Below, in pieces: positions 6,847 through 14,605 of a stretch of DNA of 64,000 nt. Origin of the DNA: Amycolatopsis sp. Lineage in GTDB: Bacteria; Actinomycetota; Actinomycetes; Mycobacteriales; Pseudonocardiaceae. A program made the position numbers and the translations under genes. Within the stretch, counting starts at the first letter, position 1; the number at the start of each line of letters is the position of its first letter. The stretch is taken from positions 1 to 64,000 of the forward strand of contig NZ_JAODNM010000097.1 of the NCBI RefSeq assembly GCF_025464955.1, given 5' to 3'. The notes under the pieces are model-generated. The model was not told the origin of the DNA. It made no database searches and worked only from the letters and a program-made list of their open reading frames with translations.

Positions 6847-7608
6847 ATGAACGGTGGCCATGCCCTGATCCGCACACTCGTCAACTATGGCGTCGACACG
6901 TGCTTCATGAACCCGGGCACATCAGGGATGCACCGCGTCGCCGCCTTCGATGCCGCGCCCGAGATGCGCAGCGTGCTCGCGCTCTTCGAGGGCGGCCACG
7001 CCACCCACCACAAGCAGTACGACGCCCAGCTCGAGTCCGATATCGAGACCGTGGCCCGTAACGTGTCGACCTTCATCCACTGGTCGGCCAGTCCCGACAA
7101 GGTCGGCGCCGACGTGGCCGACGCCGTCTCCGCCGCCACCAGCCCACCAGGCCAAGTGGCCACGCTCGTACTGCCCGCCGACGTGTCGTGGTCGGAGGGC
7201 GGCGTGACCGGCCGGCTCCCCGCTCCGGCACGACCCGCGGCACCCTCCGACGCGGCCATCGCCGAGATCGCCACCGCGTTGCCATCGGGCGAGCCCGCCG
7301 GCTTCTCGGTCGGCGGACGGGCAGGCCGGGCCGCGTTGCTGGCGCAAGCGTCGGGTATCGCCGCCGGCACCGGCGCCAAGCTGTTGTACGAGACGTTCCC
7401 CACGAGGCTCGAGCGCGGCGCTGGGCGGGCACCGGTCAACCGCCTCGCTTACCTCACCGAGTTCGATCACCTTCAGCCTCCAGCCGTCCCGTCGCCGCGC
7501 CCGCCTCGACAAGCGCAGGACGGCCGGACCACGACGTCGGCGGGAGCGGGCAGCGCACCGACCGCGCCCGTTCCCGCCGACCACCATGCCGAGCGAGCCG
7601 CACGATGA
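6847..7608 (+). pseudogene. Thiamine-diphosphate enzyme (acetolactate-synthase/benzoylformate-decarboxylase-like), internally deleted and truncated
   Basis: The N-terminus (LIRTLVNYGVDTCFMNPGTS, then LALFEG with the catalytic Glu) is typical of the Pyr domain of IlvB-like enzymes. Immediately after LFEG the sequence jumps to HATHHKQYDAQLESDIE, which normally lies roughly 50 residues later. The GDGYGR/GPG loop region is therefore missing although the frame is kept. The middle domain continues (VATLVLPADVSWSEGG), but after about residue 205 it becomes unrelated Pro/Arg-rich sequence, and the C-terminal ThDP-binding domain (GDG...NN) is absent. Intact members are about 520-560 aa; this one is 253 aa and cannot be active. 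Confidence 0.8.
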
Positions 7609-7850
7609 CCGTTCGACTGATCATCGCGCGCCCGCTCCCCGGAACAGTCGGCGAAACCCGTCGCGTCGCGCACCTCTTCCCGGTCCGGCCGGACCACGCG
7701 CCACCGGACCGGATGACCGTGTACTGCGGCGAGATGTTCGGTCCAGGCGTACTCGAATTGCCGGACCGCCCCACCGGTATGCCGTGCGTGAGCTGCCTCC
7801 GCCATTCGCCCGGCCCGGACGACGCCCAACTACCAGCGGGCGAACGATGA
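7605..7850 (+). CDS. Small hypothetical protein with Cys pair
   Basis: This is an 81-aa frame starting at ATG 7605. It has a coherent composition, with VYCGEMFGPGVLELPD and MPCVSCLRHSP, where a CxxC could bind metal. It overlaps the next frame by ATGA, which suggests translational coupling. Family unknown. Small genes of this kind often accompany integrative elements in actinobacteria; that is only an inference here. Confidence 0.45.
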   Translation: MTVRLIIARPLPGTVGETRRVAHLFPVRPDHAPPDRMTVYCGEMFGPGVLELPDRPTGMPCVSCLRHSPGPDDAQLPAGER

Positions 7851-8275
7851 CGCCGGACCGGCACTCTGTCGGCCCTACCTTCCAGCGGGAGCTTGATCCG
7901 CTGCTGCTACTGCAGGTCCGCTTGTTCGTGGCGTGCCTGTTGGCAGAAACACGATGGTGCGAAGATGTCGCCGTCCAAGCCGCCCTGCGCCTCGACCAGC
8001 GACGGTTCGCCCCGCACGTCGAGCTGCCGAACGCAGCGGGTGGAGATCCGAGCCAAAGGACGCCGGAGGGCACTCCGCCTCACCGTGCTCGGGCTGGACC
8101 GGCTGACCGAGCACCTATCCGCACTCCAGAGGGTCGCCAACGCGGCGGCCGAACTCGTCACCGCGCAGCGTGTCGCCCGCAGTCGCGTGGCAATCGACGC
8201 CGAGCGCCGGCCGGCCGATTCTCTGTGGCGGCTGCCCGCCAACGTCTCGAATCTGCCCTTACAATGGCCATCTGA
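7847..8275 (+). pseudogene. Winged-helix (MarR-like) regulator with a frameshift
   Basis: From ATG 7847 the frame gives LDPLLLLQVRLFVACLLAE then DVAVQAALRLDQRRFAPHV, resembling the start of a winged-helix domain. Near 8040 the continuing homology-like sequence (VEIRAKGRRRALRLTVLGLD, wing and last helix, then RLTEHLSALQRVANAAAELV) is in another frame. The two halves join into one sensible winged-helix protein only if a base is gained or lost, so the gene appears broken. Its 3' end runs into the GTGACGG repeat cluster, which could have been its operator. Confidence 0.55.
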
Positions 8276-8283
8276 GGTTCCTT

Positions 8284-8463
8284 GTGACGGGTTCCGACGC
8301 ACCGTCACAGCCGTCACAAGCACTCTTCGCCTAGGTCAAGACGCATTTCTAGCCGTCACAAGCGATGTGACGGCTAGATGGGCTCACGGACGATTTGTGA
8401 CGGCTAATTTCGTGACAGATTTCGTGACCACGCTCACCGCGAGGCCGTCACGAAACGAGTCAC
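8284..8463. repeat. GTGACGG iteron-like cluster with an 11-bp perfect inverted repeat
   Basis: About ten copies of GTGAC(GG) or its complement occur in 180 bp. They lie at 8284, 8302, 8311, 8353, 8367, 8397, 8412, 8424, 8445 and 8459. At the centre CTAGCCGTCAC (8349-8359) and GTGACGGCTAG (8367-8377) form a perfect inverted repeat around 7 bp. ATTTCGTGAC is directly repeated at 8407 and 8419. The density and mixed orientation resemble replication-initiator or partition iterons, or a multi-site operator. No rep gene is visible. Confidence 0.75.
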
Positions 8464-8650
8464 CGAACCCGGCCATGACGAGCTACTGGCCTTGCTCGAC
8501 CGCGCCGGCCTGGCCGTAGCCGCCGCGCGTCGCGCCGCAATGTCCGGCGACGATCCCCGCGCCGCACTCGCGGAGCTGGCGGCCGCCGCCGAGCTGGCCA
8601 ACGCCGGTCATGCGACCGACATTGCACCCAGGCCACCTGGTGCGGTCTAA
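8408..8650 (+). CDS. Possible small Ala-rich protein, start not found
   Basis: A plus-strand frame ending at TAA 8650 encodes DELLALLDRAGLAVAAARRA and AALAELAAAAELANAGHATD, a helical coding-like pattern. There is no good ATG or GTG after the in-frame stop at 8405, only a TTG near 8500. The 5' part overlaps the iteron cluster. It is either a remnant that lost its start or a short protein from a rare start codon. Confidence 0.3.
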   Translation, partial: FRDRFRDHAHREAVTKRVTEPGHDELLALLDRAGLAVAAARRAAMSGDDPRAALAELAAAAELANAGHATDIAPRPPGAV

Positions 8651-8828
8651 CCCCCACCCGCTCACGCACCGAAGCCGAGTCCCAATGCCACGGAGCTTAA
8701 GTTGATCATGCTGCGCGTGGGGTGATGGTATGGAAGTTGAGGGTGGGTTGCCCGGGGTGGCGGGTACTGCTGGCCCCTCTGTCCCAGGTTCCGGTGGCCC
8801 CGCAAACGATCAAAAATCGGTCTTGACT

Positions 8829-8889
8829 GAGCCTGGATCCACTGCTGAAGTTGCCGTGATCGGCGGGGTCATGAGCGCGAGATGCCCTG
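8829..8889. repeat. Diverged repeat, left copy (flanks the ArsR/AHSA1 pair)
   Basis: The block beginning CTGGATCCACTG and ending GTCATGAGCGCGAGATGCCC is a diverged copy of 10677-10733 (CTGGATCCACCGG ... GTCGTGAGCGCGGGATGCCC). It lies just before the IS1380-type transposase debris, so it is probably terminal or subterminal IS sequence. Confidence 0.5.
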
Positions 8890-8953
8890 CAGCGCAAGGA
8901 GAATGGGACTTGCTGAAGGTTCCTGGTCGCCTACGCGTAAGGACATCTCGCGG

Positions 8954-9301
8954 GTGCGAATCTCTCCCGAGTTCACGGCGGTCTTCGATGACCCGAACTT
9001 GGTGTCGTGCGCGGGGTTGGTCCCGGTGCTCACGCTGGCCGAGCGGGCCGGGGACCGCGAACGCACCCGCGAAGGTCACCGCGCTGATCGGCGGCATGGA
9101 CGTGCTGCGGCACGGCGAGATGGACCGGTTGTTCGGCGGGGTCCGGGCTCCTTCAACGTTCGGGACGTTCCTGCGCACGTTCACCTTCGGCCACATCCAG
9201 CAGTTAGACGCGGTCACCACTCGGGTGCCCGGCTTGGCTCGCCACGCGCATCCCGGTGCTGGCCGGTGCCGAGGCGGTCGCGTATGTCGATGTGGACGAC
9301 C
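8954..9301 (+). pseudogene. IS1380-family transposase remnant
   Basis: Three frames together give the N-terminal third of an IS1380-type transposase. The pieces are FDDPNLVSCAGLVPVLTLAE (8954 onward), then RAPSTFGTFLRTFTFGHIQQ (frame 9060-9239), then AEAVAYVDVDD (9245-9301), which would hold the first catalytic Asp. Short internal deletions remove the GxVAGADSIDD-type segment between the first two. All the rest, including the remaining DDE residues, is missing. It is inactive. Confidence 0.75.
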
Positions 9302-9390
9302 CGAACGACGTCGCGTGGTTCCAGGTGCTCGCGACGAGGGATGGCGGCGTCCCATTGCCCAATGCGTAAGTCTGTACTAACGTATTTCGA

Positions 9391-9714: not shown

Positions 9715-10676
9715 CCATCGAGAAGTCCGCACTGCTGCCCGTCTCTGCCGACGAGGCCTTCGCGCTCATCACCCAGCCCGACCGCCTGCGACGCTGGCTC
9801 GCCGTCTCCGCCCGAGTCGACCTGCGTGCGGGCGGGGAGTTCCGCTGGACCCTCACCCCCATGGCCGTCCTAGCCGGCACCGTCATCGAGGTCGACCCCG
9901 GCCGCCGAATCGTGCTCGGCGTCGGCTGGGAGCAGTCGGCCGAGCCCCGCACGGACACCGTGACGATCACGATCGAGCCCGCCGAAGGCGGCACCCTCGT
10001 GCGCCTGGTCCACGAGGGCCTTCCCGAGGACCACGTCCAGGACACCCTCGAGGGCTGGACCCACTTCTTCGAGCGGCTCGAGCGCGCCGCCATCACCGGC
10101 GATGCGGGTCCCGACGAGTGGGCCGCCGCCCCGGCGGACCTCAACCCGCTCACGTCTGCCAGCGCCACGCTCGCCGTGCTCCAGCACGTGCTGCGCGGCA
10201 TCGGCGAGGACGACCTCGCCACGTCGACGCCGTGCACCGAGTTCACGGTCGGTCAGCTCGAAGCGCACCTGCTGGGTTCGCTGAGCTCGCTGAGCAGCCT
10301 TGCCGGCCGCACGCTCGTGCCCGCGTCCGCCGGTGACCTCGAGTCGCGGATCGCCGACGCCGCGCAGCAGGCGGTCGAGACCTGGACGGAGCGAGGCCTC
10401 GAGGGCACGGTGCAGGCCGGACCGCAGAAGCTGCCGGCGACCATCGCCGCGAGCATCCTGTCCGTGGAGTTCCTCGTGCACGCGTGGGACTTCGCGTCAG
10501 CCACCGAGCAGAAGGTGGCCGTGTCCGACGAGGTCGCCACCTACGTTCTCGGCCTCGCCGAGCAGATCGTCACACCCGAGCTGCGCGAACGCGCGGGCTT
10601 CGACCCCGCGATCCCGATCAGCGGGGATGCCCCTGCGCTGGACCGCCTTGTCGCGTTCTCAGGCCGCGCCGCCTGA
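9711..10676 (+). CDS. AHSA1/SRPBCC domain fused to a TIGR03086-type DinB domain
   Basis: This 321-aa protein has two domains. Residues 1-130 are AHSA1-like (SADEAFALITQPDRLRRWLA, EGGTLVRLVHEGLPEDHVQD, GWTHFFERLE). Residues about 145-321 match the mycothiol-dependent-enzyme/DinB-like TIGR03086 group (TPCTEFTVGQLEAHLLGSL and EFLVHAWDFA, with His residues expected to bind a metal). Each half is usually encoded separately, so this is a fusion. It is translationally coupled to the ArsR gene by a 4-bp overlap. Its substrate is unknown; a mycothiol-linked or ligand-binding role is inferred. Confidence 0.87.
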   Translation: MTIEKSALLPVSADEAFALITQPDRLRRWLAVSARVDLRAGGEFRWTLTPMAVLAGTVIEVDPGRRIVLGVGWEQSAEPRTDTVTITIEPAEGGTLVRLVHEGLPEDHVQDTLEGWTHFFERLERAAITGDAGPDEWAAAPADLNPLTSASATLAVLQHVLRGIGEDDLATSTPCTEFTVGQLEAHLLGSLSSLSSLAGRTLVPASAGDLESRIADAAQQAVETWTERGLEGTVQAGPQKLPATIAASILSVEFLVHAWDFASATEQKVAVSDEVATYVLGLAEQIVTPELRERAGFDPAIPISGDAPALDRLVAFSGRAA

Positions 10677-14213: not shown

Positions 14214-14384
14214 TCAGAGGGCTCCGAGACGAGCCACGATATGTGGTGGGGTGACGGACGTCGCGTCGGCGACAGCGGCGACGTCGGCAGCGGTGATGGG
14301 GTCGGGCCGGGCCCGGGTGCAAACGGTCAACGGCCGCTGGATGGGCGGGTCCGGGCGCAGGATTCCGCCTTCGGACTGCGGCTG
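14214..14384 (-). pseudogene. LysR-family C-terminal fragment
   Basis: The last 56 codons on the minus strand (GILRPDPPIQRPLTVCTRAR, then TPPHIVARLGAL, stop) match the C-terminus of the LysR protein encoded at 26311-27225 closely. The fragment is fused in frame to the aldo/keto reductase remnant on its left-hand (5') side. No DNA-binding domain is present. Confidence 0.8.
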
Positions 14385-14605
14385 GACGACGCCGAGGCGG
14401 CCCAGCGACGCGGCGAGCGCCCGGTCCAGGTGCCGGCGGGAGAGCCCGGCGGCGTTGGGTTCGCCGCCAGTCGGGAACCGGCCCTTGGTCGCCAGGACGA
14501 TCCGTTCGGTGACCTCGGCGGGCCGGTGGTGTTACCGAAGGTCATGGTGCCCAGTGCGAACGTCGACACAGCGCAGCCGCTGGCACCAAGAATGCGATAT
14601 TCCAC
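14385..14605 (-). pseudogene. Aldo/keto reductase N-terminal remnant
   Basis: It starts at ATG 14605, 17 bp after the ferredoxin reductase stop on the same strand. MEYRILGASGCAVSTFALGT plus MTFGN is the AKR N-terminus. After a deletion of about 40 residues with a frame change it continues EVTERIVLATKGRFPTGGEP and LSRRHLDRALAASLGRLGVV, the following AKR segment. The catalytic Tyr region lies in the deleted part. It was probably the last gene of the SDR-P450-ferredoxin operon. Confidence 0.78.

Follow-up and report, generated by a model that had tools for sequence, protein, structure and literature searches.

Organization of the degraded element locus

The window, which is the whole 64-kb stretch of DNA analyzed here, corresponds to contig C122 of a 9.2-Mb Amycolatopsis draft genome. 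The locus comprises remnants of the element genes termed '161aa', '81aa', winged-helix (WH) and zinc-ribbon genes, all on the forward strand, which are intact and in the same order in relatives. The '161aa' gene is reduced to a C-terminal remnant (7497–7608) fused to a truncated ThDP-enzyme gene (PF02776, 6847–7500) that runs in frame with the end of the remnant. A '161aa' profile from relatives matched ORF 6847–7608 with an E-value of 2.8e-34 (hmmsearch), the homologous part being the last ~36 residues as judged by eye; the fusion marks a deletion junction near position 7497. Next come the '81aa' remnant (MTVRLIIARPLPGTVGETRR..., 7605–7850), which has intact homologues in L032, L037, L039, L040 and other loci, and a frameshifted WH pseudogene (HTH_34-like, 7847–8200), the frame of which changes at ~8000–8046. 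The pseudogene matches the WH profile with an E-value of 9e-30, and the intact WH homologue (L032, 10870–11280) gives a weak Pfam HTH_34 match. Over positions 7704–8170, the DNA of the window shares 71–75% identity with its closest relatives.

The WH pseudogene adjoins a cluster of GTGACGG repeats, in agreement with the earlier note, which had placed the cluster next to a disrupted winged-helix gene. GTGACGG as such is not uncommon in the window (22 copies versus 23.1 expected), and two copies are the most found in any 180 bp outside the cluster. Markov simulations (60 sequences of 64 kb) gave a maximum of three copies per 180 bp, and the Poisson bound for the observed cluster is about 2e-9. 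The earlier note had counted about ten copies in 180 bp; the cluster stands, with seven exact copies in 8284–8451 (168 bp; four reverse and three forward) and ten GTGAC cores within 8284–8463. The inverted and direct repeats that it had described are both present, namely a 13-bp perfect inverted repeat (8348–8360 / 8366–8378) and two copies of ATTTCGTGAC (8407–8416 and 8419–8428). By contrast, the cluster is not the single unit at 8284–8463 that had been proposed, but two adjacent modules at 8222–8408 and 8408–8463.

The first module was delimited using R1, a sequence-only covariance model built from 11 of 13 aligned clusters. In a whole-genome search, positions 4–190 of the 193 positions of R1 matched 8222–8408 on the forward strand (89 bits, E 1.6e-24; alignments A1 and A4), and the homologous site therefore reaches further left than first noted, with degenerate repeats at that end. 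This degraded site contains GTGACGG repeats, a remnant of a central inverted repeat and a spacer. The central repeat (8281–8320; CTTGTGACGG / CCGTCACAAG plus flanks) has partly lost its left arm: the outer left arm reads GGGTTCC in place of GTGACGG, and the inner arm is intact. The second inverted repeat at 8348–8378 reads TCTAGCCGTCACA / TGTGACGGCTAGA in the window, and relatives keep a GCCGTCAC / GTGACGGC pair.

Downstream, the zinc-ribbon gene remnant (8459–8650, forward) has lost its zinc ribbon, its C-terminus and a normal start codon; it shares 52–64% identity over ~60 residues with the proteins of L010–L015, and full-length relatives have 218–260 residues. Beside it lies insertion-sequence debris (8730–9380, forward) of frameshifted ORFs, which we take to be from an IS1380-type transposase; a Pfam search of this debris gave no match. 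With a frameshifted WH gene, a gutted zinc-ribbon gene and no linked TraB gene, the element of the window is dead, and its copy of the site has almost certainly lost any function within an element. R1 found one such site in the assembly; clustering of GTGACGG at many unrelated loci, which by the earlier note would have refuted its reading, is thus not the case. The same genome encodes one full-length TraB of the same family on another contig (L242, G000 C37, 1908–4094), and no R1 site was found beside it. The L242 element may be incomplete or may use a diverged site.

A distinct module: the putative operator of the zinc-ribbon gene

In each of the nine loci examined, TTTCGTGAC pairs lie 5' and GTCACGAAA pairs lie 3' of a TACGCT-like putative -10 box in front of the zinc-ribbon gene. 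This arrangement is also kept where the gene is at least 0.6 kb from the site (L045, L141 and L151): in L045 the gene lies across the site, and in L141 and L151 it is kilobases away. In the window, the corresponding stretch 8408–8463 (forward strand) comprises two copies of TTTCGTGAC, a -10-like CACGCT, GTCACGAAA and GTCAC. As judged from these sequence patterns, 8408–8463 is a separate putative promoter/operator of the zinc-ribbon gene and not part of the TraB-linked site; the ATTTCGTGAC repeats (8407–8428) and the GTCACGAAA at 8447–8455 belong to this operator. The module is similar to the sps/spdA2 region of pIJ101 in having conserved short palindromes tied to one element gene, but the latter is a 12-bp palindrome within the gene, belongs to another protein family and serves stability rather than transfer (PMC4170104).

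Architecture of the site in relatives

Alignment of 13 clusters from relatives established a site of about 190 bp with a common anatomy. Each site typically has 6–10 GTGACGG-type words (TGTGACGG, 7–8 bp) of mixed orientation at fixed spacing; in one reading direction the GTGAC cores are separated by about 48, 9, 21–30, 9, 42, 12, 8–9 and 22–30 bp. The center is formed by the inverted repeat GTGACGGCTGTGACGGGT...ACCCGTCACAGCCGTCAC; beyond it come a conserved spacer (about TGTTTCCGCAGGTCGA), a second, short inverted repeat (GCCGTCAC/GTGACGGC) and then a further forward word or two. The words vary among loci: GGGACGG is the majority word in L092, L095, L122, L166 and L195, L189 is mixed, L225 has GAGACGG, and the Saccharopolyspora sites (L219 and L237) have GGACAGG words; the overall layout is kept in these variants.

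In variant sites, the two arms of the central repeat change jointly. For example, the arms of L110 read GGGACGGGTGAGACGGG...CCCGTCTCACCCGTCCC and the remaining words of this site are still GTGACGG. Double-change cells of the central arms numbered 45 versus 25 in shuffles, a statistic that is inflated by relatedness. The site contains an 18-bp stem and folds strongly as a single strand (z about -7; the values of L110 and L092, whose sub-ranges missed an arm, are left out), and the consensus structure that RNAalifold derived from 55 sites was weak (-2.7 kcal/mol, 9 pairs). Selection for a hairpin, recognition of the dyad or template-switch correction of the palindrome would each explain the covariation, and we do not claim a hairpin. 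A structured RNA family was rejected, as no curated Rfam model exceeded its gathering threshold, the best being C4 antisense with 32.7 bits against a threshold of 45.

L037 carries two copies about 5.4 kb apart, a half site (8940–9004) by the zinc-ribbon gene and a near-full site (14383–14566) by the WH gene. The WH-side copy is in inverted orientation, and the pair suggests a rearrangement at the site.

Distribution of the site

Of 80 Amycolatopsis genomes, 48 were positive with R1, carrying the site one to a few times each; in the family Pseudonocardiaceae the count was 104 of 299 genomes, spread over 29 of 47 genera. Across 297 genomes of the phylum, it recovered the window's own site and three marginal matches (E about 1e-4; 3/296 other genomes). 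This near-absence establishes that the site is specific to the family, rather than a generic GC-rich repeat. Plasmids searched at the DNA level, using both the window and an intact site as queries, yielded no homologous site. Outside the phylum, a Candidatus Dormiibacter MAG (L216) has both this TraB and the site, which may reflect transfer or mis-binning.

Linkage of the site to the 3' end of the TraB gene

To avoid circularity, TraB loci were gathered by protein alone (A5; 80 named loci) and the site was sought afterwards. It lies at the 3' end of the TraB gene in 46 of these 80 loci; its start there ranges from -3 to +22 bp relative to the TraB stop codon, and its orientation to TraB never varies. 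At the TraB 3' end of the other 34 loci there are an integrase or other genes, and several Amycolatopsis elements among them retain the site 7–17 kb from TraB. In other genera, the TraB 3' end adjoins the site in 18 of 20 loci. Of the Amycolatopsis genomes, 41 have both, two have TraB only, seven have the site only (congeners without a strong TraB) and 30 have neither (Fisher P 7e-13). Linkage to TraB is hence established. In relatives the site is closely tied to element genes, and the lack of such a tie, which the earlier note had named as refuting its reading, is not observed.

Within Amycolatopsis, most sites are located at the 3' end of a 161aa-81aa-WH operon, and the other flank is variable, being occupied by TraB, the zinc-ribbon gene or cargo in either orientation. 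In elements with a serine integrase, the integrase and cargo lie between TraB and the site (in circular order), and the geometry of the site is unchanged, which points to a cis-acting DNA site and not to a feature of the TraB transcript. Two other genes were tried as the constant partner and rejected: most copies of the site have no zinc-ribbon gene, and in L045 this gene is on the opposite side; the WH gene is absent or replaced beside many sites outside the genus.

The frequent position of the site in a convergent intergenic gap (L140, L045, L034 and L036), together with its 18-bp stem, would suit a bidirectional terminator or a structured 3' UTR shared by traB and the convergent operon. However, a terminator has no need of 6–10 copies of a word at fixed spacing or of a conserved unpaired spacer (TTTCCGCAGGTC), the geometry is the same 7–17 kb from TraB and where the next gene is co-directional (L032, L039 and L046), and the Rfam search found no family above threshold; we therefore regard this explanation as very unlikely.

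The earlier note had also offered a multi-operator, here one that would serve for control or silencing through the element's own regulators (WH, tandem-HTH or XRE). Regulator genes lie directly upstream in most Amycolatopsis copies and the adjoining zinc-ribbon module is clearly operator-like. The proposal fits only the right end of the cluster. It does not fit 8222–8408, where the site occupies the 3' ends of genes, which in many cases converge on it, and where the left neighbor varies (81aa, WH, XRE275, tandem-HTH, zinc-ribbon or integrase gene) while TraB is constant across genera. An autoregulatory operator of the WH gene is likewise unfit, because the site is downstream of that gene and often lies between convergent 3' ends. 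For the TraB-linked module, regulation by these proteins has little probability, about that of a terminator.

In Amycolatopsis elements, the cargo slot next to the site is a hotspot rich in anti-phage defense genes, which include Septu-like PtuA and its partner, DISARM DrmA/DrmB, a CBASS cyclase, MkoA, and DRT-helicase and PDC candidates. Defense-rich slots are found at L033 14111–16484, L034 2205–7087, L035 4898–8311, L036 3652–7194, L039 10624–11538, L104 6586–8028, L113 6451–9123 and L115 10818–12695.

The host element

Several copies of the site are bounded by 43–57-bp att repeats at tRNA genes, in elements with an integrase and TraB, which bears out the earlier note in assigning the cluster, as a cis site, to an actinobacterial integrative element. 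L140 represents a complete element of 10.1 kb with a 57-bp att repeat at 2092 and 12236. Its genes encode a tyrosine integrase, a NUDIX protein, XRE-type regulators, an HTH_17 protein, WhiB, the small proteins '109aa' and 'DUF2637'-like, TraB, 81aa, 161aa and a regulator; '109aa' and 'DUF2637'-like, which have no Pfam match, are presumptive labels of our own. The site (9973–10151) takes up the ~200-bp intergenic interval where the convergent TraB and 81aa genes end. An attachment site (attP) was rejected, as the att repeats are located elsewhere in the element.

Replication of the excised element would offer another role, in which the words are iterons for an unrecognized initiator and the hairpin is part of a double- or single-strand origin. 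Actinomycete integrative and conjugative elements (AICEs) are said to require autonomous replication (PMC3218068), theta plasmids such as pWTY27 possess a comparably sized iteron region whose repeats occupy both strands (PMC3583192), and the covariation and strong folding of the central arms would fit an origin. On the other side, a Pfam search of the ten main proteins of L140 detected no Rep-type domain (DUF3631, Prim-Pol or other), and the site tracks the TraB 3' end within about 25 bp and not a rep gene. The origin proposed by the earlier note is thus not supported, and we consider it unlikely. Small, att-bounded and complete TraB elements similar to L140 are found that have no recognizable replication gene. 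A combined, hairpin-forming transfer and replication locus appears less likely again; there, TraB would recognize the extruded palindrome with oriented words on its flanks, and a single nucleoprotein site would both load the translocase of double-stranded DNA and start replication of the element; if true, such a dual site would explain the elements with no recognizable Rep gene.

Some partition proteins are winged-helix proteins, and short repeats clustered in both orientations would also be compatible with a centromere or partition site. Nevertheless, no ParA/ParB-type domain was detected by Pfam in the ten main proteins of L140, a complete element, and the partition site suggested by the earlier note finds no support here; it is the least credible of these roles and highly improbable.

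A predicted winged helix at the C-terminus of TraB

Part of the motor core of TraB can be aligned with FtsK structures, and the match of the protein to the curated plasmid-TraB model is weak (28 bits, with a cut-off of 800). In the AlphaFold model, the last ~85 residues fold into a helix-strand-helix-helix-wing-helix arrangement with a pLDDT of about 95, and the C-terminus of TraB is thus predicted to be a winged helix. Structural similarity search of this domain using Foldseek gave weak MarR, TFIIE and archaeal winged-helix matches, none below an E-value of 0.001; the TM-scores are low owing to a disordered linker in the model, and the matches indicate the fold class only. The repeat word and the TraB winged helix showed no sign of coevolution in a partial Mantel test that controlled for overall TraB similarity (0.03, P 0.36).

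A proposed clt-like transfer locus

Taken together, we propose that 8222–8408 is probably a decayed clt-like cis-acting transfer locus of a Pseudonocardiaceae AICE family, which TraB would bind through its C-terminal winged helix. Intact elements have about eight TGTGACGG words, arranged around the long inverted repeat at the 3' end of the FtsK/SpoIIIE-like TraB gene. We infer that the winged helix would read these words, that a TraB hexamer might then assemble or load at the site, and that the excised double-stranded element would be pumped by TraB into the recipient. According to this proposal, the window holds a fossil transfer site followed by a gene-specific operator.

The site is comparable with the clt loci of Streptomyces plasmids. 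The clt of pWTY27 spans 175 bp, of which 16 bp lie within traA and 159 bp beside it, has four TGACACC copies and is bound by TraA, an FtsK-like translocase (PMC3583192). Both sites are ~175–190 bp long, lie at or overlap the end of the translocase gene, and contain 7-bp words with TGAC as well as inverted repeats. They differ in that pWTY27 has direct TGACACC repeats plus CCCGCCC, whereas the present site has TGTGACGG in both orientations at fixed spacing around a long palindrome; moreover, pWTY27 belongs to another plasmid family and another host family. The clt of pJV1 has nine 9-bp repeats (PMC3583192, PMC4170104, PMC12857230), and a C-terminal wHTH of pSVH1 TraB reads 8-bp clt repeats, as cited in PMC3583192 and PMC12857230. 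These clts resemble the present site in having multiple 8–9-bp repeats beside an FtsK-like Tra protein with a C-terminal winged helix; however, the words are different, the repeats are described as direct, and the elements are unrelated at the plasmid level. Published descriptions of clts mention mainly direct repeats, whereas the present words run in both orientations around a long palindrome; this difference counts against our proposal. So do the negative coevolution result, the 34 of 80 TraB loci with other genes at the TraB 3' end, the seven congeners that have a site and no strong TraB, and the weak match of TraB to the curated model. Similar to pMEA300/pSAM2-type AICEs, the present elements are tRNA-linked and have an integrase, an FtsK-like Tra protein and small regulators, but the L140 element differs in having no recognizable RepAM/Prim-Pol or other Rep gene (PMC3218068). 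Overall, the site matches known clts in size, position, repeat length and partner, and would represent a new variant provided that it functions as one; the papers searched describe no transfer site for this TraB family.

The interest of the finding lies in the family-wide site rather than in the copy in the window. R1 can be used to find and bound these elements, including dead ones, in about one third of Pseudonocardiaceae genomes. The site also marks defense islands, as the adjoining slot in Amycolatopsis often carries Septu-like, CBASS cyclase, DISARM and MkoA genes. Furthermore, the choice of DNA by an FtsK-like translocase becomes testable outside Streptomyces, with the GTGACGG, GAGACGG and GGGACGG sites serving as natural mutants.
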